Shown: piece by piece, positions 6,916-44,100 of the stretch | How the letters are laid out: the number at the start of each line of letters is the position of its first letter | Position numbering within the stretch: the first letter of the stretch is position 1 | Made by a program: the position numbers and the translations under genes | The notes under the pieces: generated by a model | The model's database searches: none | What the model was told of the DNA's origin: nothing | What the model saw: the letters and a program-made list of their open reading frames with translations, nothing else | From: Nymphaea colorata | Taxonomy: Eukaryota > Streptophyta > Magnoliopsida > Nymphaeales > Nymphaeaceae | Assembly: GCF_008831285.2 (NCBI RefSeq) | Contig: NC_045149.1 | Coordinates: 22,698,535 to 22,762,534, forward strand | DNA: 64,000 nt | Direction: 5' to 3'

Positions 6916-9164
6916 TTATGCCTCGTCGGTCACAATGGTTCCCTTCTCGCTCACATAGATACCATCAAGGAACTTTCTTATATCCTTGTTCTTCACATGG
7001 CATTTCTGTCAAACATAGCAAAAAAAAATTGACGTTGTTAAGAAACCGATTGCTGTTACATCAGCTCGATATTGCAATACCAAACAGAATGAGACCTTGG
7101 ACACTTATACCACAGAAACGGGTCAGAGGAAGCACACATACCTGATTTATCAATGCAGCAGATCGGGACACAAGCTCAACATCGTTCCCGTCCAATATCA
7201 GCTCATCCTTAACTTTCTCTGAACGAAGAACAGTCACGCCGTGTAACATGTCCACCTTCCTCACCTGACGAGTACAATTGTAAAGTATAAAAAAGAAACT
7301 AAAAAAGGTTGCATACAGCAAATGGATCAAATATTTTTGTGAATTAGGCAGTAATTCAAAGGAAATTCAGTTTTCCATGTTGAAGGTGAGAACAGCATAA
7401 GAAACGACCAGAAAAAGACCAGGATCAGCTTAAAAAAAAAGTGACGACAGACTGAAAATAACAGGTGCATCCGTGTATGTATCATTCCGAAAGCTGCCAT
7501 ATTTTACCACTGCACAAAGATTACAAATAAGTGAATTATCATATGTCAGGAACAATTTCTTTTATAATGTGCCCTGCAGAATTTTGCATTGGAGCAGCAG
7601 TAAATTTTCCCTGCTAGCCATTGAGAAGTCCAAGACAGAATTTATGGGTTATGTGAATCCTGGTGCATTGAGACGTCATTGACTTACAAAAAAACAATAG
7701 AAGCCCCATAAAATTCTACCCATCAAAGTTGCCAGAAACTACAAAATTGCAAGAAAACCTAGTATTCGAGAAAAACAATGAAGGACAGATGCATTCAAGC
7801 TCAATCAGCAGTTAAGAAGTTGGGAAATCCATACCCCCCCCCCCCCCCCCGGGGGCCTCTCAAACACGCACCGACACACAAAGCATGAGAACGAGTTAGG
7901 ATATCGGCTGCCCAAAACCCCTTTTTCACAGCCATTCATGCAGTAGGGGATTCTTTTGCAAAGTGATTCATTAAGAAACTACAGAGAAGTAGCGCAGTGG
8001 CTTGGGAATTGGTTATCATGGAAACAAAATGAACTCATGGCCACCAACTCGGCACATGCCTAAGCATGCATAGCACCTATAAATGTATTGGCCATGTGTT
8101 TTACACGAAGAGGAGTACAATTAAGTCCTATGTTAAAAATGAAGAACTGGTTAACAACCAAAACAATACACAAACTCATTTTCAAATCAAAATTTCAAGG
8201 AAGGAAATTCTGGAAATGAGAAAGGCTATTCTCCTCAACAAACTCATTAACGTACAAGCAACCCTTCACACAATTCATCCACCTAACAAACATTTTCTCA
8301 CAGAACTTCGAGTTCGCACTCCCATTTAACAGAGTACTTAGGACATTGGAGATCTCCTCACATTCTGCCTTCCAGAAAAAGTGCCAACTCTCAAGGCTCA
8401 AACTTATGATTCATGCCAATACCGTGGGACATGCTTCAGTCATATATTTGATGAACATATTCTATGAAATTTCGTCCTGTTTTCCACCACTAAATATTTT
8501 GAAGATACAGTGGGATGGATAATGCTTTCAAACCAATATTTCTTGCAATCCAAATAACCAGCCACCCTCGCAAATGAAATAAAACAATAGGAGTGCCTTT
8601 ACAATGATGATCAATGTGTGCAAATCAAACATCATCAAAATATAAAACAATAAAAAAAAAATAGACACATCAAGGAAAGCAGTATCTCATCATATCAAAG
8701 CACGGCCAGAGGGAAAAAACATCGGATCACGAAAATTTGCAAAAATGAAACACCACAAAAGCAACCGATATCATTTTTTCTTTCTTGGCAGCGCATCTTA
8801 CCCGCTTCTCGCCCAAAAAGTTTCTGATCTCGATGGACGTGTTCGAGTTGGTGATGCTGGCGTTGATGGGGAAGTGAGCATAGACGAATCGCATCTTGTA
8901 CCGGTAGCCCTTGGTGACGCCGGTGATGAGATTCTGGATGTGGCTAATGGCGGTGCGGATGGCGGCCATCGTGCGCCTCGACCCAAACCACGCGTCCACC
9001 TTCAGCTTGCGACCTCCCTCGGTGAGCTGGAAGTCGAGGCTCAGGTGCTTGAAGTCCCGGGTGAGGGTGCCCCTCGGCCCCTCCACCTTCACGAACTTCG
9101 CCTTCACCGTCACCGTCACCTCCTCCGGGATGTCCATCGTCTGAGAGGCCAATATGGTCTTCAT
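6916..9164 (-). CDS. RPL9: 60S ribosomal protein L9 (uL6), three exons
   Basis: This gene encodes a structural protein of the cytosolic large ribosomal subunit (uL6 family). Coding exons are 9164-8802 (121 codons), 7264-7142 (41) and 7005-6916 (29 plus TAA). All junctions are phase 0 with GT-AG ends, and the protein is 191 aa against about 190-194 in plants. Exon 1 starts [15 protein letters not shown], the usual plant L9 start. It contains [37 protein letters not shown] and [11 protein letters not shown]. Exon 2 reads [10 protein letters not shown] and [20 protein letters not shown]. Exon 3 reads [20 protein letters not shown]. The short [13 protein letters not shown] loop lacks the insertion I know from Arabidopsis. 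Intron 1 is about 1.5 kb and intron 2 about 136 bp. No key segment is missing, so I take the gene as functional. It is divergent from the bromodomain gene, with a 1.7-kb spacer between. Confidence 0.97.
7834..7855. repeat. C17-G5 homopolymer junction in RPL9 intron 1
   Basis: Seventeen consecutive C residues are followed directly by five G residues in otherwise AT-rich intron DNA. The G run could pair with the end of the C run. Such a tract is hard to sequence, so its length is uncertain. Confidence 0.85.
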
Positions 9165-9264
9165 CTTTGCCCGGCCTTCCGCAGAAACCGACTTGCAGAT
9201 GCGACGGCCGACGAAGTAGTAGGAACAAACGAAAGACAGACTCGGGGTGGAAGCACCGGCCCTT

Positions 9265-9273
9265 AAACCCTAA
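9265..9273 (-). promoter_or_regulatory. Telo-box upstream of RPL9
   Basis: AAACCCTAA lies about 100 bp upstream of the RPL9 start codon. Telo-boxes are common in promoters of plant ribosomal-protein and other translation genes, where they act with site II (TGGGCY-type) motifs. A GGGCC core on the gene strand lies immediately next to it (about 9258-9263). The position and the gene class make this a credible promoter element. Confidence 0.65.
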
Positions 9274-12182: not shown

Positions 12183-15104
12183 ATGGACAAATCAATTCAG
12201 CTTGATGCTTCTGCCGCTAATGCTACGGAAGAAAAATTCTTAGTGATGGAAAAAGCAAATGATGAACGACAGATCACTAGTGAAGACGAGAAGGTTAAGC
12301 AGCAGGTGGAACAAATGGCTGTGAAGGTTGATGAGGTAATTTGTTGTTACCGTCAACATGTTTCACTCCTTTTCGTTTTTGATACTGCTCTTAATTTGTC
12401 TTTACTAGAGCTGGATGAAAGATTGTGAATTTATCATGTTATGGATATCTCCAATTAAATTCCGAGTTCTTTATGATGTCTTGGGTTCTGGCTTTATTTT
12501 CAGGCTCAGATTCTCAAGACTTGGACCTTATTGTGATTGTGGGACATGTTAGTTGTGTAGCGAAAGGGTATTGTCTATGCCTTCAATCTTAAGGTGGCAT
12601 GTAGTGAGTGTAGTTCAACAATGCCACTGTTTCAAGTATCTTCTGGAAATAAAAACTTGACTCAGAGAGGCAGCAGGTTTAGATGTTAATGAGCCTATTA
12701 TATTCCTGTGTCATATCTTTGCAGGTGCTTTGACACCTTTGAAGGTACAAAAATGTGGTCATAGGTGGTTTATGATTTGATTTTTTGAGCTTTTTCACAC
12801 AAGCCTGGTTGATTATGTGACTTGAGTCTAGAGCTTGATAACTATTTTATCTGAAATCTATGTGCTGTGGTGAAGGGATATCATTTACGTACATGTGCAT
12901 ACAACTACCTGCTAGATCCCAGGAAGGAAAACTGGAAAATTAGCAATCAAATGATTTAGTAGAAATAGTTATCTGAAAACTGTGGTGATCCACTATATTC
13001 ATGACTGACTAAGCTACTTAAGCAAACAGGACCTGTGCATTTTCATACAATAGGTCATAGTTGCAAATACATGATAGTACTACCAATTTCATTGTCGTCC
13101 CTAAAGTTTTTTCGTTCAATAATGGTCCCACTTTTTTCATATGAAAGTGATCATGAGCTCATTTGCTTGGTCCTTCCCAGTAAGTGCTCACGTCTATGTG
13201 GGAACAGAACTTGGAAAATACGTTTCTAGAACAACTAGCAAATATGTTGACATTCCTAGGAAAGTGGTGAACCCATCTTGACATGGTTGCCAGACATGGC
13301 AAAATCATATTTTATACTTTTTGGTCTATTTTGGTACTCTTTTTTTAGCAATTTATATTTTATGAATATAAATAATGAATATATGTGTTTTTGGCTTAAA
13401 TTCTTGTTATATATCTACATATATATACATGTATGTCTCTATGTACGTATTATGCACACATATACATAGAGGGCCGTGTCCCCACACTCAATCTTTTTGA
13501 AAATTCTCCACGCCGATGTCCGAGCTGCACACATGCCCATGTTACATAAATGAAACTTGTACAGTAGACAATGAACCATGCATGATCAATTATTGTGCAA
13601 AACAAGAGTTGAAAAAATGAAACGTATAGAATCATTTCCTTATATTTTGTGGGTTGTACTCCCTGCGGGAGGACAGCCAAGTAGTTTGGTTCTGCTAATG
13701 AATTAACATTATTAATCCAATTTTTTCAGTTTAATTAGCATAATATATTTATCTGAAATCATAAAGATAGCTTATCTTATTATATCTACTCATAGATAAA
13801 CCATTACCAAAACACATTTGAGGATCAATTGTTGAGTATGATCAATGGTTACCTTAAACACGAGATCAATATTTTCAGATTTTATTAATGGATGTTTGGA
13901 AACATTGACACTTGTGAGGTGGAAAGAACCACATCTTATTTCGAAAGAACTATGTAACCGTATACTAGTTTAGAATTTCCTGATACTAAAGCCAATCAAA
14001 AGCTTCCTGTTGCTATAATTTTATTTTCTGCTCTTGTAATCTGTTTTCATTGTTACGTGATTCTTATAGTGCTTATACAAGTAGGCATCAATTCAGAATA
14101 AGTGGTTGTACCTACCTTGACCTATTAAATTGTCATATAATAAGCACATGAATAACTATAAGCAATGTGCTATCTTGTTGTAAAAAAAACAATGAACATG
14201 TTCCTTGCTGACCCCATTGATTAACAGGAAACTATAAAATGTCAATTGAATCATCTTACATACTTGATTAACATCATTTTTAGACAAAAAGGTTAAAGCC
14301 TGGAGGGTACACTTGTTTAACATCGTAGAGGTGCTACAGTAAGTTCGTAACTGCTGGTACATGTATTACTATCTGACTAGAAATTTATTGATTGTTATAT
14401 ATATATATGTATATAAAATTTTGAGTTAAAGAGCATGCAGTAGAAACTGGATAATTGCTTAGAAATCAGTGGGATAACTGGAATGTGCTGTTTAATAACT
14501 TCACTATATTATTATTGATATGCAGCTAGAACAGAGAATAAATAAAGTGGCTCAGTTCTATTCATCTATCAGCAAAAAGAAATCAAATAACACCAAAGGC
14601 AACTCTGTAAAGGACAGAGAGAGGGATAAAGTGACTGCAAACCTGAAAAGACAAGAAGCAGCTCAACGAGAGATTGCATCTGAGAAGCGAATGCAAGAAC
14701 TCATTCGACAGTTTGGTACAATATTGCGCCAGGTACCATTTTACTCTATTGCTCAAAGATGATTAGTAGTCATAAAAAATGGTTCTGTTCCACTAGATCT
14801 GCTGATGTTCCATTATGTAGCCTAAATGACCTCCTTTAATCTCTGTTGGCTTCTTTTCTGACACATGGGTGTGGGTATGGGTGCAGAAATAGGGGTGAAG
14901 TAATTTCAGAATGTTTGTGCGCACGGTCTCTATATATATATATATATATACATACACAGAGAGAGAGAGAGAGTTATCAAGAAACACTCATGAATTACAA
15001 AATTTCTTTTATTGCATTTAGTATTATTAATCAATAAAAAATTACAATAGTTATTACAATATATCAAATAAAAAAACCACAATTACATATATATATATAT
15101 ATAT

Positions 15105-15138
<34 letters not shown>

Positions 15139-18100
15139 ATCAAGAAACACTCATGAATTACAAAATTTCTTTTATTGCATTTAGTATTATTAATCAATAA
15201 AAAATTACAATAGTTATTACAATATATCAAATAAAAAAAACCACAATTACATTGTTCACATTTCACAATTGCAAACACTTTTCATGACAATAAAGTGAAA
15301 CAACAAATAAGTGTGCTAGGAAAGAATCTTTATACCACTACTCTTTAAATGACTAGGAGGAAAAAAAATTACATTTATGGATTAGTAAGGCATACCAAAA
15401 TGGCCTTAAAGAGTAAAATTATTTTCACTTTCTGGTAAACTTGGCTAATGTTGATTGGGTCTAAATTTGGACCAGAATAGGTATATGTACTTTGACAGTT
15501 TGAGCTTTGACTGAATATGGCACTTCTTTGGCCATGTTCGTAGACACATCTGTGGCCAATTGTGTTAGCACAGCTGCAGCAGCCAATCAAAATAACATGT
15601 GATTTAACTTCTTTTGTGGGCCTGAACTTTAATGCACTCAAGTGGTGGTTCACTAGATTTACTTATGTATAAGCTTCATTTGTATTTGGAGGTGTATTAA
15701 TACTTTAAGCAAAATATATTTCTTTTTTGTCTTGTCAGATTATGCAACACAAGTGGGCCTGGCCTTTCATGGAGCCCGTGGATGTTGAGGGCCTTGGCCT
15801 ACATGATTACTATAAGGTAACTTTGCTTTTTGTGGATAATCTGCTTCGTACTTCTATTCATTTTCATTGCATTTTGACTCCTAGAGGTGGTGCTTATCAG
15901 AATGCTGCTTTAAGATAATGATTTGGCTGATAAGCATATATCAATCCGTACTAGTACTCTAGTAGTAACACACTATGTATATGAAGAGTTGAGAGTAGTC
16001 ATATATCTAAGGCTTTTAAAAACCTTGAGAGGTTTATGTATTTGTATGCTATACTACCAATTCTCGTCTTTTTGTAGCCCTTTTTGGTAAGAGCTGATGT
16101 CAGTTAAAGGATGGGTTGAGATCTGTCTCATTAGACAATAAATTTTAGGTTGTAGTTGGTATTAAAGCTAGGCAGGTTCAGCACTTAGACATGGGGTCTA
16201 GCAAGTGAGTATGCATGTTCCTTAAGAGGAGTAGATTTTCACACCCCATGTGTGTAGAAGGACTTGTGAATAACCCTAAATTGAAGATTTTGAGAAATGT
16301 TGATGAGGCTAAACCTAGTTCCCAGTTTTATTTTGTAAGCATTTTCAAGTGCATACCAAAGCGAACCTTGACACAGATTGGATTCACCATATTGGGTTTG
16401 GGTCAATTTTGGGGGAAGCAGTTTTAGTTGGCAGCAAAGCCAAGTTCAATATCGAACTTGAGGTTCAACAGCAACAAAGTGTATTCGTTAAGAGGAGTGT
16501 GTATTCATCAAGAGGAATGTGTGAGTTAAGAGGAGTAATAAGTGATTGTTGTAACATTCCATGTATCTTGTGAATACTCTTATGCCAAAACGTTATTTTT
16601 GCATCTAACTGTGGACCATACAATTGATTTGTCTTAGTATTCTCGGACAAACCAAAATCGGGATGAGGTCAGCAGTGCAGTCAGTTTTGGACTAAGTTAT
16701 TACCATTGATATTAGAGCTAGGTTCCATACTCAAAAATGGGGTTCAACGTGTGGGGATACTGTTAATTGTAATATATTAATTTTCTTTTCTTGTATTTCT
16801 TTTTTCTTTTGTTGTAATTTATTCCTTTCTTTTTATGTTTTTCCGGTTCAGCTGAATGTTTCAGCTGAATCCCTAGCTGCTGGACTATTCAACGACTAGA
16901 GTTCTATCCATTGGAGACTCCAATAACTCCTTGTTTCTGTATATATTGCCTTTTAGTCTTCCTTTTTGTAAGTCTTTTGAGAGCTGATTTCCTGAGTTGA
17001 ATGACATTATTGATGATCTTGAAGATATAGATTTATATCTATTCTTGTTCTTCTTGTGTGCAAGATTATCTGTGTGACGTGGAAGATATGGCTTTGAATC
17101 TATATCTGGATTTCTTACAGATACATGTTCTCTAGAAAAATGCTGCATTCACGGAACATGGTATTCTATGCATCACATGATGAAGTCCACACCCCATGAG
17201 AACACTATAATAGAACATGATATTCCTTGCTAAGTGCCACATTCTGAAAAGTGAATTTGGAGTTCCACCATTTTGGCAGAACACCAAGGAACAGATGCCC
17301 CTATCTTAAAACCTTTTGCATAATTCAAACTAAGGATGGAGTACCGTCTATGGCATGCAGCAGGTGGCATCTTGGAATCCCGTTCTTGGCATTCCTGGGT
17401 TGGGAATCAAACATACTCTAAAGGGAGTGCATTGTTACATCTCATGTGCGCCGGAAGGACTTGAGAAAGTCCTATGTCAAAATCTTCAAAAGATATTCAG
17501 GAGCATATTCTGTACTAGCAATTGTCCTGTATATAGATTTATTAAGGTGCAAATTGGAGCTGGATACAAAGTTGGGCTTGGATCTGTCATACTGTGGGGT
17601 AGTTTTGGCCAGTTCATTAGAGTTGGTATCGGCAGGTTTCAATCCCTAGGATGTGCGAGTTGTGGCCCCACATTTAATGTTCAATCACATTGACAACTAA
17701 GTATACCTTTCTATATGGAATCCATGGAACCAAAAAAGATACGACTGCGAACCATGTTACTGTTGTCAAATAAATTTTATATTTTTTTTGTCGCAAATCA
17801 TATTGTTCACATCATAGAGTGCACATACCCTCAATACCGGGGTTGTACATAGCTGGCTTCTTGCCTACCAATGGGTCTTGGGTCAAAACGCTGTTCTAGC
17901 TGGATTATCTAAATCCCACTACCAAGCAGGTAGCAGGCTGAAAAGCTTGCATACATCCTGGCAAAGGTTTAACAATCAGGTGCAAATCATAACACAGATT
18001 ATGTTGAGGATATGGGTGGTTTAACTTAATAAAAGAACCAGCATGCTGAGTGCTGATAATACAGTACTACCCATGAAACCATATTTGCAAAAAATTCATG

Positions 18101-30306: not shown

Positions 30307-32638
30307 ATGAAATCGCCAGTCTGTAGTTGCCTGTCCAAGATGCTTCAGAGGCTTGCAAAAAGCGAAGAACAAGGAAAGAAGGTATTCACTATCTGTTTCT
30401 GTATCTTTCTGTCTCTCCCACTCTGCATATTGGTTAACGCTTTACTGCTTGAAATTTCAGGGTGCATGTTACAGGGAGCCGTCCGTGCTGGTGACTCTCT
30501 ATGTAGTTAAGCCCTGGGGATCGCATAACGCAGACGCTTGCAGGCCGACTGGACGGAGACGGCGCCACCGGCATCGTCAAGGGATCAGGGTTCAAACTGC
30601 AGGCACTGCTGCTGGTGGTGGTGGTGGTGATGGCGGTGGCGGATACAACAGAAGGCAAGAGCTCCTCCGCTACTGCCGGCATCTGAGGACGTCTGCTGCC
30701 AGCCAACCATTATCACCACCACCTCCGCATCAATCTCAGAGGTCTCCCCCACGATTGCACCTTCCTAATGAGCCGCAGCGGCATGATCAGGTCGTTACAT
30801 CCTGACAGTTTTGCTTCTGCTCTTCTTTTGCATTCCTGTTTTCATGATTATTGAATTCCATTCAGGAATTGATTTCCTCGGAAAGGGTTTCATATTCCCG
30901 TGCATTCTAATTACGTGGAAAGTTATTGTTTCCTCTTCATATATGAATTCTTATTGAGTTGCAGTATTACTTACATTTCAGAAGTTTAGGTTCATTTCTT
31001 CGATTATAAATAAAAATAGAATTTCCTTTTTAAGGTATAAAGGAGGTGACAGGAAAATTTTCAGTGATCATCAGAGTACGCGGTTCCTTTCCAGAAAAAC
31101 CGCGAGGATTTATGAACTTAGTCATGTTTTATAAGATCTTGATTTCCTCACACAGTTTATGCGGGATTAAACATCAGTATCTCCTTTTCAATTTTTTCTG
31201 TGATCTTTTGGAGAATACGCCGTCCAATTTCGTGAATATTTCTAAACCCATCTCCCCATTTCCCACAGCCAACATGCTTATATTTTAATAACATTAGTTG
31301 GGAACAACGACTCCTGCCTTGTGAGTTCAGTTTATCATAAAAATAAAGTTTGTTTCATCTCATTCGCTATTTTATCTAAGTTGTTAGGTCTTCCTGCAGC
31401 AACTTCCATGAGTTTGTTATCTAAATTAAAACTCCAGAACTGTTCCAATCTTTTAGAAAATGTGCCAACGTGGTTTAACTGCCTATTCGCGATGGACCAA
31501 CTCAAATCTTTGCACTTTGCATGTCGATAACATCTTCTAAAAGGAAAATCCTGAAAAGTTTCCAACTCACTAAAAAGGATTGCCAAGAGAGTTTGCGATC
31601 AACTGAAATTAATTTATACACATTCATGATATTTGGTTGGTGTTCTTGAGCTTGGAGTTATTTACCTGTAAAAATAAAAAAATTACAGAAAAACGTACCC
31701 AAGTCATTGTAGGTATTTAAATATTTTGTCCATTCAAACAGCCTTCACCCATTCAGTGGATGGGTGCGGTGCAGCTGAATAATTAATTTTGTTTGCTCAT
31801 TAATGAAGCGACCCTTTCTCAACCAAGGAAGCCTTTTGGCCCATAGAATTGTTGGTGCCTTTCAATTTGGACATGAGCGGTGTCCCTCGAAACAAGGGAA
31901 AGTCTTGCTTTCATTCGTCCCTAAATTAGAGGCACATGGGGCATGTGCCTGTTGTGAGGCGTGCCCTGCTCGGTCCACCAAAAAATGTGCATATGTAAAA
32001 TGAAAAATAATGGCATATTTTTGAAATTGTTAAAAAAATGTTGTTTTGAGTTAATTTATTTATTTATTTTGTTTTTTATTTAAATAAAAGCATTTTAGTC
32101 ACTAATAGTGCTAATGCACGAAATACGGCGTACATGACCAGCTTTGGATAAGGAAATCCGGTTTATGTGATATGAGCTGTTTGGATTTTTTTTTTGAGTT
32201 TAAGATGGAATGTCATGTCCTGTACAAAGTTGGTTCTGCAATTTAATGCCAGCCCTATTCTAGCTATGCATCAGGGGTTTCGGCAAGGTCAGTCTTCGCT
32301 TGGTCAGCTTTTTATTGCTTTTTACTTAGGCAAGAGTCAACAACTTACTAGAAAAGTTCTTTTACTCTTTTTTTTTTTAAATTTTTTTATTTTGTAGCAT
32401 TTCCTTGTTGTATTTGGTTTACTGCTCTTGTTCGTTGCAACAATAGATTGATTCTAGTTGATGGTAGAACTTGATATTGTTTATAAACAAAACCTATATA
32501 TGATTTTTAAAAGAATTCGTGACAAACGGGTCATCTTAACATGAGTTTATTGGGTTTGCCTTTTATGCATGATTGCAGGGGAAGAGGCGCCTTAGAAAGA
32601 TGCTCACCTCTCTAAAGAAGATGAATATTGTTCATTGA
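30307..32638 (+). CDS. Probable three-exon gene, unknown Arg-rich protein of 154 aa
   Basis: I do not recognise this protein. Exons 30307-30381 (25 codons), 30461-30790 (110) and 32579-32638 (19 plus TGA) join in phase 0 with donors GTATTC and GTCGTT and acceptors TTTCAG and TTGCAG. In the last exon only this phase stays open. Visible features, in order, are a short N-terminal helix-like segment (KMLQRLAKSEEQGKK), an Arg/His-rich stretch (RRRRHRHR), and a poly-Gly run of about ten residues. These are followed by a helix-like NRRQELLRYCRHLRTSA, a Pro/Ser-rich linker (PLSPPPPHQSQRSPP), and a basic end (GKRRLRKMLTSLKK). The composition suggests a nucleic-acid or nuclear protein, but that is a guess. 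Intron 2 is about 1.8 kb. The start is the first ATG in the open frame, and an upstream exon cannot be excluded. The stop codon lies inside the first unit of a 42-bp triplication. Confidence 0.45.
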
Positions 32639-32739
32639 AGCACCTGTTCGTGGTTAAAGAAGATGAATATTGTTCATTGAAGCACCTGTTCGTGGTTAAA
32701 GAAGATGAATATTGTTCATTGAAGCACCTGTTCGTGGTT
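32614..32739 (+). repeat. Perfect 42-bp tandem triplication over a stop codon
   Basis: Three identical 42-bp units (32614-32655, 32656-32697, 32698-32739) begin AAAGAAGATGAATATTG and end TTCGTGGTT. The first unit contains the last codons and TGA of the unknown gene, so units two and three fall in its 3' UTR. The unit is a multiple of three, but the frame that stays open through all three is closed by stops just upstream. Confidence 0.95.
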
Positions 32740-35162: not shown

Positions 35163-38100
35163 CTATTTTGATCTTTCCTGCCGGGTATACTCCCATATGG
35201 CAATAGCACCACTAACATGAACGTTGAGAGATCTGACAACCCCCAGCTGCGGGATCTCCACGCACGCATCCAGAATGTGTATGATATCCACAGGGATACC
35301 CTCCTTTTCACGTCCAAGCACCAAAACCTGGGAAAAGGGTTCAGGCGTAGTAAACATTGTAAGTGGGTACAGGCTAAGGCAATAAGAATCCCCGGAAAGC
35401 CTTGAACTAAAGCCCGATTACTTATAGCTTGTTAAGATATTACCGTTTTCCTTGGGAAGGAGTATTGATCGAGTGGCACACTATTTGCTGTCTGCTCCAA
35501 ACCCACTAGGCAGAATCCATCTCTCTTTTTCTTCTCCAGAAAAGGTTTTATGCTGCATACTGGAACCTCAAGGACTGGAACCCACTTCTCAGCTGTCACA
35601 CTAAAGATAGACCACTTGTCTAAGCAATACGAGCAAATATGTGCTAAGGAGGCTAAGCAATACGAGCAAATATGTGCTAAGGAGGGAACTCTCACAACAC
35701 AAAGGTGATATATATGGTGATATACTAAAAAAGACATGGAGAGTACACTAGGAACAGAGAATAGAAGTCTGCAATGAGAATCGACAAAATAGAAAGGTAC
35801 ATAATGTAGACAGATAACTTTTGGCTCAAAAAGAAACTTTTGATCTGGAGGAATGAATGCAGGTAGAATGTACTTTCAGTGCTAAATCAATAAATCAATG
35901 CTTCACCTGATTAACTGAAACTGTTTGTCTTGCATAACACTTTTGTCTGCAATAGCCAAGGCAGCAGCCTTAAACACCTAACAGATCATTATTGCACGTA
36001 AGAAGCTAGAACTTGGATAAATTATGCATCTAATTGCAGGAAGCAAGTAGGAAATTGCAATGAGAAGTCAAGCTAACAAAGTAACTCCAAACGACATTTG
36101 CAAATTGCAGCCATGGTGATTATGCAGGAGCATAATATACCTCACATGTTCGTGCTAAACCAGCAAGATTTGGTATACGATCAAGCAATGAAGCAATGAC
36201 TATAAGTTCTTGCCGACCATCTTTTAGCAAATCAGTGTTTCTGCCCAGTAGCATCATCGTGTACAGATGATCTTCCTCTTCAATTTCTACATACACAAGA
36301 GAATATTCATCTTTATTGGAAGATGTAATAAATAAAAGCAATCCGATACCCATATGACATGAAAATTATCACCTTCTAGTCCACCACTTTATGTTCAGTT
36401 GGTTACTCCAGCATAGCATACAACATGATAAAATTGTTGCCAGGTTCTAATTCTAAAAGGTCATGTTACCATTTTCAAACAGTAAAACAAATGGAACTCA
36501 CAAGCACCGATATCTCCATGAAGAAGAGGTGTTTTTGAGTAGGAATAAGAAAAGGAAAGTAAAAGAGTTCTTTTTTGATAGGAGTAAGAATAGTAAAATA
36601 CAGCCATCATTTTTAGGGAAAAGGAAGAATGCATTTATTCTCAGACCAAGTAAGTTTGGAAAAGTCGTCAAAGTAGAAACCTGCAAGTGAGTTTGGACCA
36701 ATCATTTTTTCCAGAGTAGCCTTCTTCTGGAAATTGAAAGTTTTATCTTTAGGATGCCCAGGAGCTGATAGCATCTGATCAGATTGCTGAACTGCAAGAT
36801 CCTCATTCTTTAGGGTCATCTCATCATTTGCCATAGACATCCTAAGATCGCCCCTTGCATCCTGAGAGTTATTCATAGATGAGACAGGAAATATCCTAAA
36901 GCAAGAAAAGAGAAAAAATGTACTTACATTTAGAAAATCATTCACTTGATCCATGAGAGATGTTGGCACGCATTCAAATTCAATGTCCTTGGAATAACAA
37001 AGTTTCAGAAGACATACAATTCCATTCATAAGAAAAATAAAAAAAAAAGGTAGTATGAGCACTAAAACTTACTTCATCTTTCGAAGTAAATATGCCTTCA
37101 GGAGTTGCTGCAAGATTTGGATCAAAAGCATCAAGAAATCCTTGCATCGAAGACCTTAATCTGAAAGCCGAACATTATAGTTTATCAGGATAGGACACAA
37201 TATATCTCAGATATTGGATGCAGCTAGCCCAATTGATTTTCCTTAATCTTTTATACCAAAAGGTACAGTTCTCACATACACGATCGCTATATTAGAGCTG
37301 GACAACAGCTTAGTTAAGCCCAAGTTTGTCAGAATTTCTAGAAAAAGCGCAGAACAAGTCCAGTGAGGGGCAAAATAGGGATGCAGACATGCTGAGTATG
37401 AGACAAGTCAAGAAAGGAGTTCGAGCTGAGCTAGAGTTTGCTGCTCAAACACAGGTTGACTGAGCAGCACAAGTCTTGAGCTAGACCTGCTCTTGGCTTG
37501 GCTAACCTGAAACGAGCTGATTCCTTTTTTTTTTCCTTCTTCAAAGATGTACAAAAAGACACTATGGAGTATCCAAATTGTGACACCTTTAATAAAATAA
37601 CATAGAATCAATCATTACTGTGAAAAGTGACTATAACAGTCACAAAGAATACATATAATACCAAAAAGGCACTAAGGCCAAGTGAAGAAGAGTAATACTC
37701 ATTCAATAAACAATATAAAGGCTGTAAAACACAGCTTCTGCTTTACAAAGACTGTTACAAGGATATTTATAAGAGAGAATAAGAAGAGATGAGCTAAACT
37801 AGCCGTTGGGCTAGTTCCAACAGCTCTTAATAGAGCTGTTGGAACTGCCAACGGCTAGTTTGGCAGAAATAATAAAAAAATAAAAAAATAAAAAATAAAA
37901 AATAAAGAGAAAAGAAAGAAATAAACTAAATCCTAAACTAATTCCTAACTAATCCTAAACTAGCTCTTAACTAAGATAATACCTAATTAAGAGATAACAA
38001 CAATAAGAAATCATATTTCTTAACACCCCCCCTTAAACTTACGGTGCTATCACCGAAAGTTTATCTAAAAGAAAGTTGAATCTGGGAGAACATAGAGGCT

Positions 38101-41100
38101 TTGTGAAGAAATCAGCCAGCTGGAACTCGGAGGAGACATATGGAAGTTTGATAGTCTTCTTCAAAAATTCTTCACGAACATAGTGACAGTCCATTTCTAT
38201 ATGCTTTGTTCGTTCATGGAATGTTTGATTCTTGGCAATGTAGATAGAACTCTTGTTGTCGCAGCATAAATCAGTGGGTTCTTCTATCTTTATTCCCATA
38301 TCAAGGAGCATTTGGCGAAGCCAGACAATTTCCATAGTTGTAGAAGCCATGGCTCGATATTCAGCTTCAGTAGAGGATAGTGAGACTTTCTGTTGCTTTT
38401 TGCATTTCCATGAGATGAGTGATTCGCCTAGAAAAACACAAAATCCAGTAGTTGAGTGTCTATCATTAGGATCTCCTCCCCAATCAGCATCAGTATAAGC
38501 AATCAAGTTCAAGGAGGAAGAGGAAGACATAAATACTCCCTTGTTTATTGTTCCCTTAATATATCTGATGATACGAAGAACAGCTCCCATATGAACGGTT
38601 GATGGAGCATGTTGAAATTGACTCACAGTATGAACTGCATGAGCAATGTCAGGCCGAGTGATGCTAAGGTACATCAAGGATCCCACAAGTTGTCGGTAAG
38701 GAGTGGGATTGGCAAGTGGAACTCCATCATCAATCTTCATCTTGCTTCCTACTGCTTCAGGAGTTTCTGTGACCTTATCATCTGTTATGCCTGATTTAGC
38801 AATGATCTCTGCAGCAAACTTAGTTTGTGACAAAAAATATCCTCTAGTAGAGTATGCAACCTCAATACCCAAGAAGTACGTTAGAAAACCTAAATCTTTC
38901 ATTTCAAAAGTTTCTTATAGTAATTTCTTACATTCTTTAATACCTTCCTTATCACTACCTGTAATGATCATATCATCAACATACAGTAGAAGAATTATGA
39001 TACCTGCAGTAGTATACTTAACAAACAAGGCAGTGTCAGTTAAGCAAGAATGAAACCCATAATCAGAAATAACAGAATTAAAACGGTCAAACCAAGCTTT
39101 AGGAGCTTGTTTGAGGCCATAAAGAGCCTTCTTAAGTCTAAGAACTTTCCTTTGAGGAACAGACAACCCTGGTGGTACTTCCATATAAACCTCTTCCATA
39201 AGATCCCCATTTAAAAAGGCATTTTTAACATCCATTTGATAGATATTCCAGTTTTTAGCAGATGCTAAAGCAATAAGGGTCCTAACAGTAGTCATTCTAG
39301 CTACAGGGGCAAATGTTTCCTCATAGTCAATACCATATTCTTGAGTGTAACCTTTGGCAACAAGCCTTGCTTTATACCTTTCTAGGGATCCATCACTTTT
39401 AGTTTTCACCTTGTATACCCACTTGCATCCAATAGTCTTTTTCCCTATAGGTAAATCTTGTATTTCCCAAGTTTGGGCTTTTCTCAAGGCATCCAATTCT
39501 TCTAACATGGCATTCTTCCACTCAATATATTTGGATGCTTCATTAAAAGTAGAAGGTTCAAAGTGAGAGTGAATGGCATTAATTCTAGCTCTATGAGATG
39601 GAGTAAAAGTTTCATAAGACACAAACCTATTGGGTTGTCTTACATTTCTAGTGGATCTCCTAAGGTTTTCTCCACTTTGAGTTGGTTGGAGATCAATGGT
39701 CTCATGATGTTCTTCTTCACCAACTTCTTGTTGCCGGTTTCTTCTATGATAAGTGATTATATCCTTGGCCATTCTACTATCATTACCACCAGTGTTGCTA
39801 TCATCACCATCATGCATTTCATCATCACATTGAGAAAGGAACTTAAATAAAAAGGAATAATCATTATTGTGTTGTGACTCCCCACAATTTTTAAAACCAT
39901 TTTCATCTTCACAAAACCTTACATTCCTTGAGACAATGATCTTGTCTTTAATTGAGTCATAACATTTGTAGCCTTTTTGGGTTTCAGAATAACCAATAAA
40001 AGCACATTCAATAACTTTTGAACTTAGCTTATCAGCCTTGTCATTAAGAACAAAACATTTGCATCCAAAAATACGAAGTCTATTGAAATCGGGTTCATAC
40101 TTGAATAATTTTTCAAACGGAGTGGTATTATGTAAAACTTTTGAAGGCATTCTGTTTATAAGATAAACAGAGGCAAGTGCGGTTTCAGCCCAAAAGTTTT
40201 TAGGCACATTTTTGGAAATAAGAAGGGTTCTTGTTGTTTCAATTATGTGCCTATGTTTTCTTTCTGAAAGTCCATTTTGTTGAGGTGTTCTTGGACAAGA
40301 TTTTTGGTGGACTATCCCATAGTTTTTCAAATATCTTTCGAACTCATTTGAAATGTATTCACCTCCGGAATCAGTCCTTAAAATTTTTAATTTAGCATTG
40401 AATTGTGTTTGTACTAACATGTGAAAATTTTTGAATATCTCAAAAACTTCGGATTTATATTTTAGGAAATATATCCAACAATACCTAGTGAAGTCATCAA
40501 CAAAGATCACATAATATGATAGCCCTCCTTTTGACATGATAGGAGAGGGTCCCCATACATCGGAATGAACAAGCTCAAAAGGCAAAGAAGAGAAGAAGTT
40601 CCTTTCTCCAAAAGATAAAGATTTCATTTTTCCATGTATACAATCATTACATTTAAAATTTTCAATACAAATATTCTTGGTAGGGTTCATCATAGACAAT
40701 TTTCTAACATTTGGATGACCTAATCTTTGGTGCCAAACATTGATGTCCACATTTTCAACATAGTGACAAAACTTTTCTTTGGGGATGCATAAATTGTCCA
40801 TGTAGTAAAGGTCCCCTTTTCTAAAACCTTCCCCAATCAATCTCCCGGTTTGGTGATCCTGCACCAAACATTTATTTGATGAGAAAACAACATCAAATCC
40901 AAGATCTGAGATTTGTGACACAGAAAGTAAGTTAAGATTAAGTTTAGGAACATAACTAACTTTTGGAACAAAAAATTTTTGTTTTCCAAATTCTTTTTCA
41001 AAATTCCCAATCCCTTTAACACTTAAAGAAGTTCCATCGGCGGTAACAACATTTGATTCTTTTCTTGTTCTTTCAAATTTGGTCAAAGATGATATATTTG

Positions 41101-44100
41101 GTGTCATATGAAAAGATGCACCAGAATCTAAAAGCCAAGAAAACATACCAGGAGTGTTGGAGATGGATGCCGTTGTTGCTAGTGCTCCGGAATTTGACTC
41201 CTTGATCATGGGTTGAAGGGCTGTCATGATTTGATTCAACGTTGTGGATATAGATGATAGATCACATCCTTCATTTGTGACATTTGCGGCCTTTCTTTGA
41301 TCAAATTGTCTAATGTTGTAATGTCCACCTTGAGGAAATGAAATTCCCCGGTTGTGTTGCCCTCCTTGTGGATATGAAGTTCCTCCTTTGAGAAAATTTC
41401 CTCCAAGATTCCGCGATTGTCCTTCATTGTTGTTCAACTTTGGGCAACTAGGTCTTATGTGACCCGGTTCATGACAAAAGTGGCAAATAACTTTATATTC
41501 TCCTCTAATTTGATTCTTAAAGTGAGGAGGTCTAAAAGACTTGATGTTGTTTCCAGGTCTAGAGGCGGCTAAGGCTCTTTCTTCTTCTTGTTTTGAGACA
41601 AGAACACTATCTTTATCCATTTCTTTGGATAATTTCATTCTAGTTTCCTCTCCACTTAGCTTTGTAAGAAGTTCATGAATGAGTGGAGGAGAGGATGAAG
41701 AAAGAAGGGCTGACCTTATTTGTTCAAATTCGGGCCGTAGCCCTTGAAGGAATTGAAAAAACCGAAATTCATCTATTTCATTTCTTCTAATCTCATGGCA
41801 TTTGCAGTCCAACCCTAGTTCGGGACTTAGTTGATCTAACTCATTCCATACACTAGAGATTTCCATGAAAAATTCTCTAACATTTTTCTCTCCTTGCTTG
41901 ATACTTTGGGCCTTTTGAATCAAAAGATACTTTCGGGCCATATCTTTTTGGGTGAACATTCCCTTAAGATATTCCCAAACTTCACTAGCCTTTTCATAAT
42001 ACATAAGATTTTGGGCAATTCTAGGTTCAATACTTCCATAAATCCATTCTTTAATCCTAGAATTTTTAGCTTCCCAATCGTCTAATTTTTTGTAATATTC
42101 ATTCATAGCATTTTGTCTTTCCACTCCATCTAGTTGTTTTTCAATCCCATTTTCTATTTTGGTCAACTTGAGAGTGGGAGGGATAGACGTACCTCTTATG
42201 AAGCCCCATAAATATTTTCCTTTGATATGCATTTCCAAACATTTTGCCCATAGTGTATAATTGGTTCCGTCAAGCTTGTATGGAGCATAATAGCTTCCTC
42301 CTTCAATTGAAACTTTGGAGTCTTCCATGAGAGCAATACTTGAAACAATAATCTCCAAGGAAGTCAAGAAAAAACTCTTCTAGAAATTTCACCAAACAGT
42401 TGGTGAGCAACCGCAGCAAAAAGGCCTTCAAGAAATTATATCCTCCAGCAAAGAATCTCTTCAATCAAACCAGCAACATAAAATCTCAGCAGCAGCCTTT
42501 AACAAGCTTTGAGAATCAGCCCAATGGCTCTGATACCATGTGAAAAGTGACTATAACAGTCACAAAGAATACATATAATACCAAAAAGGCACTAAGGCCA
42601 AGTGAAGAAGAGTAATACTCATTCAATAAACAATATAAAGGCTGTAAAACACAGCTTCTGCTTTACAAAGACTGAGCAGCACAAGTCTTGAGCTAGACCT
42701 GCTCTTGGCTTGGCTAACCTGAAACGAGCTGATTCCTTTTTTTTTTCCTTCTTCAAAGATGTACAAAAAGACACTATGGAGTATCCAAATTGTGACACCT
42801 TTAATAAAATAACATAGAATCAATCATTACATCAAGCATTACTTTGCAAAATATGTACAGAAAAAAAATTGTATACGTAATTTTTAATGCAAAAAAACTT
42901 GTACTTCCCATAACTGTGAGAAAACCTGATCTCTGCTTAGTTAATATACAAGAGAGAGAGAGAGAGAGAGAGAGACGCAACACACAGAAACATGCAAGCC
43001 AAACACATCAAAGTTCCAAAAAGAGTCAAACCTGCACCCACAATCATAAATTAGTGGCACAATCTAGGATTGTATTCCCTCTAGTACCCTCCAAGATCTC
43101 CACCTCATCTATTGGTTCTCATGCACCATGGCTAGGATATACACAGCTTCGTTGGACACGAACCCCAGCTCAGTGCATATGTAGGCACAAGTTCCCAATT
43201 CTTCTAGTTCTCTCACATATAAGGAATAGCAATAGCATGATGAACAGATTCACTGCTACAAAGTTGGGTAAGGGTGGAAACTGGAAAGGCAACGTGTATG
43301 AGGACTCGGGTGCATGATCAAACTGCAAGATGGCTAGCTAATGGGTGTTGCCTCGAGTACCTAGCCCATGCACATACATTTGCCACAGCCGTAGCCTAGA
43401 CAGGGATCAAGGAACAACCAAATTAAATAGTGTTTGACTTGGTCAAGTAGCCCTACCAAGTGGAATAGCAAAGGGGACCACCATTGAAAGACCTGTCTAA
43501 GCCTTGGCCACACAGAATTGCCACTTGCATGGCCTTGGCATTAGGCCAAAAGGATCAGACCATGGACCAAGACAATGCCATCATTGACTTTCAAAGATCT
43601 CACCTCTTTGTAAATCACGTTCCCAATAAGGTTGGGCATCGGGCCAGGTACCGACCGGTACCTGGTACCCGGCCTAAAAAAACCAGGTCAGCTCGAGTTG
43701 GCCCGACGGGGCCTGATATATTTTTTAATATTAATTTTATTTTAATGATATATATTTTATTGTTAAAAATATAATTTACATTAGTAAAATTTTATTTTAT
43801 ACTTTTAAAAATATTTTTTTATTTTAACTGGCCGGGCTCAAGTTTCGAGCTGTGGGCTGGCCCGATGCCCAGCCGCCACCAATCCCATGAGAATCTTGTG
43901 GATCAGCTGTCATTGGAGGCAATAATGTTTGAGAGTGACAACATTCTCGTCACACTAACAACCAATGTTATCTGTATCGTACGATACGGAAATCATACGA
44001 TACAGACGCGTATCGTACGATACGTATCGTCCGTATCAACAAAATCGATACAATACATGTTATACGCACGATACGCGTGCCTATCGCCCGTATCGTACGA

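Follow-up and report, generated by a model that had tools for sequence, protein, structure and literature searches.

A Copia retrotransposon flanked by a 161-bp host duplication, probably a one-ended integration finished by host repair

The window, a stretch of 64,000 nucleotides (C12:22698535-22762534), carries a Ty1/Copia LTR retrotransposon with a Copia-type gag, in which integrase lies upstream of reverse transcriptase (Pfam order Retrotran_gag_2 and gag_pre-integrs, followed by rve at 596-695 and RVT_2 at 965-1149) and an in-frame stop in the reverse transcriptase region separates two open reading frames. The element lies on the minus strand, since the primer-binding site adjoins the right LTR and the polypurine run adjoins the left LTR; the clipped right LTR, beside the primer-binding site, is therefore the 5' LTR, and its outer 271 nt are missing. 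The features of the element and its borders are as follows:

37458-37618, plus strand: left host copy, ending in the 5 bp ATTAC directly next to the complete LTR end
37619-42674, minus strand: Copia element, recognized by its LTRs, primer-binding site, polypurine run and Pfam domains
37619-38025, minus strand: complete 3' LTR of 407 bp, TGTGAA...TTAACA, with an end ascribed to insertion by integrase
38026-38032, minus strand: polypurine run, GGGGGGG in the element sense, adjoining the 3' LTR
38039-42367, minus strand: gag-pol region with two open reading frames, 38915-42367 and 38039-38902
42527-42538, minus strand: primer-binding site TGGTATCAGAGC, which we take to be of the plant initiator methionine tRNA type, adjoining the right LTR
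42539-42674, minus strand: truncated 5' LTR, retaining LTR positions 272-407 in the element sense
42670-42674, plus strand: microhomology GACTG, 5 bp, common to LTR and host, the same bases as 37458-37462
42670-42830, plus strand: right host copy, continuous with the original flank ATCAAGC

The two borders of the element differ in kind. At the normal end an intact LTR terminus stands directly on host DNA (ATTAC/TGTGAA at 37618/37619), and at the aberrant end an LTR cut to 136 of its 407 nt, identical throughout to the first 136 nt of the left LTR, meets host DNA through GACTG. String comparison finds the host segment at 37458-37618 again at 42670-42830 as a direct repeat with 100% identity, and beyond this second copy the sequence reads ATTAC and then ATCAAGCATTAC, in the order expected of an uninserted site. 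The original prediction had already described an exact host repeat fused to a truncated LTR and running into the flank as an empty site would, and all of this stands; its repeat of 160 bp is in fact one of 161 bp, with correspondingly different coordinates, because the shared microhomology is the 5-bp GACTG and not the 4-bp ACTG that it proposed. When joints between the window LTR and about 1 kb of host flank were tried, 0.9% had a flush microhomology of at least 5 bp, so a chance origin of the GACTG overlap is unlikely. The event is recent, as had also been suggested, because the 161 bp of host repeat and the 136 bp of LTR together contain no differences; if a billion sites gain 13 to 2 substitutions per year, this gives an age ceiling of about 0.4-2.5 million years.

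The duplication is local to this locus, because searches of the assembly (408 Mb, 783 contigs) with either flank matched nothing but the locus and its second copy. The 919-bp left flank, in a search that skips simple repeats, matched its own locus and, over the 161 bp nearest the element, the right host copy, and the 770-bp right flank matched itself alone; neither flank turned up again elsewhere in the 408 Mb, nor did any contig holding the empty site. A host repeat at the insertion site was considered as a source of the duplication and rejected, as the flanks have no other copies apart from the duplication itself. The window contains no N, an Rfam search of it gave no matches, and a Pfam search of ten open frames outside the element found no domain near the insertion and only one in all, a ribosomal protein L6 domain about 28 kb away (window 8730-9269, minus strand; E 6.3e-15). 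Elsewhere in the window a 42-bp unit is repeated perfectly three times in tandem (32613-32739), and there is a 146-bp direct repeat with 163-bp spacing, 98% identity and TA-rich microsatellite (14931-15239).

We surveyed the family by an LTR search of the assembly, in which the best 40 of 211 candidates were scored, and by a pattern spanning the primer site and the LTR start with at most three mismatches, which gave 42 sites; both outer ends could be read in 26 of these, the window copy included. Target duplications of 5 bp flank 22 of the 26, of which two are AAAAA and thus weak, one of them at C4:14.17M, where two LTRs about 10 kb apart were read as a single element interrupted by a nested insertion. 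The window copy has no such duplication and carries 161 bp instead, which bears out the earlier view that simple target duplication does not account for it. Long exact host duplications occur in two of the 26, the window copy and an element at C11:7833309-7838636, and two more are otherwise abnormal. At C2:30.16M both LTR ends are reached, one of them starting TATG and not TGTG, and the flanks do not match (GGTCG and TGAAT); its 5'-most 60 nt are not duplicated within 1.5 kb, and the assembly contains this left flank a single time. At C9:3896063 the 3' LTR lacks LTR positions 1-135, and a host duplication was not found between 655 bp to the left and 4.8 kb to the right. The cut in this 3' LTR, at position 136, falls at the same LTR position as the cut in the window 5' LTR, on the other side. 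At two of the 16 sites not read at both ends (C7:9.67M and C10:13.25M), the expected LTR start was absent from the short stretch that was read.

Junctions between primer site and LTR were examined at 30 of the 42 sites. Twenty-three have full-length LTRs, two have LTRs that reach the end with internal deletions and four have diverged LTRs that match in part; the window copy alone stops abruptly within an otherwise matching LTR, and the idea that the family has a recurring form whose 5' LTR is shortened was rejected on this ground. Much of the family is young, because in 12 of the 16 LTR pairs compared, each aligned over about 400 bp, there is no more than one substitution (and in ten of the 12 no more than two gap positions); the other four pairs differ by 2 to 7 substitutions.

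The C11 element is a mirror image of the window copy, with the damage at the U5 end where the window copy has it at the U3 end; in both, the truncation lies within an LTR. Its 5' LTR end is complete (TTAACA/TATCC), and its 3' LTR starts 13-15 nt late with a 2-bp overlap, TA, with host DNA. The same 349-bp host stretch lies on both sides without a difference (348 bp in the BLAST alignment). Among the best 40 of 63 candidates scored for a 1173-bp flank query, the exact duplicate occurs at two places only, and other matches reach at most 94% identity. Since about 20% of the joints between the window LTR and its flank reach a 2-bp overlap, the overlap in C11 may be due to chance. The two LTRs of C11 are identical over 401 aligned nt, and there is therefore no visible lag between its insertion and its duplication.

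Similar structures are described for retroviruses whose integration has been disturbed. In the account given in PMC5041404, aberrant HIV and ASLV proviruses mostly have one normal end and another that is often truncated, usually with short homology at that joint, and duplication of host DNA is the commonest outcome, usually far exceeding 5 bp and reaching hundreds or even thousands of bp. In the model put forward there, the viral 3' end that stays unjoined, and that has often been trimmed, starts DNA synthesis from a short stretch of homology in host DNA close by; host polymerase copies that DNA, and homologous recombination closes the joint, giving a host deletion when it acts on one side of the integrase-made joint and a duplication when it acts on the other (PMC5041404). 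The window copy shares with the HIV-1 and ASLV/RSV cases an integrase-type end, a truncated end, short homology and a long host duplication; it differs in being a plant Copia element in a genome, with no known provocation, whereas the retroviral cases in that account were induced by drugs, by mutant integrase or by mutated DNA ends. With ordinary plant Ty1/Copia insertions it shares the family, LTR termini, primer-binding site, polypurine run and order of pol domains, but it lacks both their 5-bp duplication and 271 nt of its 5' LTR. Human non-classical HERV-K insertions, as reported in PMC3625200, resemble it in their truncated provirus ends and microhomology, which is present at both ends in three of four loci; unlike the window copy, with its one normal end and duplication, they are truncated at both ends and accompanied by host deletions.

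We propose that the window copy probably arose by an aberrant, one-ended integration in which the other end was attached by host repair. Integrase would have joined the U5 end of the Copia cDNA (left in the window) to the host at ATTAC, as it normally does, and the U3 end (right in the window) would have stayed unjoined, being incomplete, trimmed or simply not used. The free 3' strand of the U3 end, ...AAAGACTG, may then have paired with the host GACTG that lies some 160 bp left of the insertion site, from which a host polymerase would have copied 161 bp and run into the original right flank, with recombination or end joining closing the gap. Such a sequence of events would account for one perfect and one clipped LTR end, for the 5 bp of microhomology at the latter, and for 161 bp of duplicated host DNA where the family normally has 5 bp. 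We infer the enzymes and the order of events from the observed anatomy, and the mechanism is carried over from retroviruses because a plant or Copia precedent was not found: abstracts of the open-licence literature yielded no report of one-ended integration by a plant LTR element, and passages of PMC5260121 and PMC12312487 have no bearing on it. We file the window copy as a putative natural plant Copia case of a process known from perturbed retroviruses.

The same end sequence could instead have arisen in two steps, by a normal insertion followed by a microhomology-mediated exchange or template switch involving a sister chromatid or an allele without the insertion. The right host copy does continue into an uninserted flank, the junction does carry 5 bp of microhomology, and the steps are not dated by any sequence difference. 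This route nevertheless requires two events and an empty partner, and the exchange would have had to use 5 bp, or 2 bp in C11, although long allelic homology was available. Breakpoints would then be expected anywhere in the 5-kb element and are seen 271 nt from an end in the window copy and 13-15 nt from one in C11, both within an LTR, which the exchange does not by itself account for; this argument is partly biased because the survey began from intact primer-site/LTR junctions and near-complete LTRs. Neither copy shows a visible lag between insertion and duplication, and we regard a two-step origin as unlikely. The join between filled and empty alleles that the original prediction called for is not needed, as one-ended integration produces such a structure in one event, and C11 repeats it as a mirror image. 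Nor is a heterozygous insertion implied, as it had been taken to be; the absence of a second flank copy neither proves nor excludes heterozygosity.

Capture of cDNA at a double-strand break with a stagger of about 160 bp, its overhangs filled and its ends joined with no integrase at either, would also produce a long duplication and microhomology, and in a single step. An exact LTR terminus nonetheless stands at one end in both cases (TGTGAA here, TTAACA in C11), which would rarely happen twice without integrase, and we consider this origin very unlikely. Large plant assemblies can contain errors that join two haplotypes or incorporate a chimeric read, and the joint is known here from the assembly alone; a jump between haplotypes, the other explanation advanced originally, would have had to pass through an overlap of only 5 bp in sequence free of N, with no second copy of either flank found, and to occur twice, given the mirror structure on C11, another chromosome-sized contig. 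An artefact of this kind is highly improbable. We favour one-ended integration, whose anatomy recurs in mirror image, independently, in another member of the family. Against it, not all odd ends in the family fit, as C2:30.16M and C9:3896063 are abnormal with no duplication detected.

The frequency of such copies also bears on this reading. Unperturbed HIV gave no aberrant integrations among 99 and among 85 in the account cited above (PMC5041404). With these two cell types pooled, two of 26 against 0 of 184 gives a Fisher p of 0.015, a figure biased because the window copy was selected for being aberrant; with that copy excluded, one of 25 against 0 of 184 gives p = 0.12. One-ended integration must accordingly assume either that this Copia element misfires more often than unperturbed HIV or that ascertainment inflates the rate. 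It is conceivable, if rather unlikely, that one-ended integration completed by the host is a regular minor route of this family, at a rate (2 of 26) in the range of drug-perturbed and not of normal HIV, and that the window copy had a defective cDNA end. The break at 272 lies near the expected transcript start, and the copy may carry such an end if minus-strand synthesis ran to the 5' end of the RNA and the second strand transfer was not completed; the cut at the same LTR position in C9:3896063, on the other side, would fit this. The break is not a clear U3/R boundary, given a predicted TATA box at element position 255, from which the usual plant spacing between TATA box and start would place the transcript start nearer 285.

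Where a long duplication lies beside an LTR retrotransposon, it is easily mistaken for a fault of assembly or a chimera of alleles. The window copy and its mirror image on C11 suggest that such duplications can arise naturally, through integration completed at one end by host repair. Copies of this kind would escape annotation rules that require both LTRs to be full length and the target duplication to be short, and they offer a means of counting integrase failures in natural genomes.

Two further features of the family emerged from the survey. An LTR start of TATG in place of TGTG occurs in the elements at C1:8967477 and C2:30161044, of which the first keeps a 5-bp duplication, CTATG, and the second has none. 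The elements at C5:27170077 and C3:10434463, whose LTRs are 97.5% and 99.5% identical to the window LTR, have near-identical flanks beyond the 5' LTR, with four differences in 1111 bp; the first of them has no 3' end in the stretch read, and their likeness reflects either a segmental duplication or an ectopic exchange between elements.
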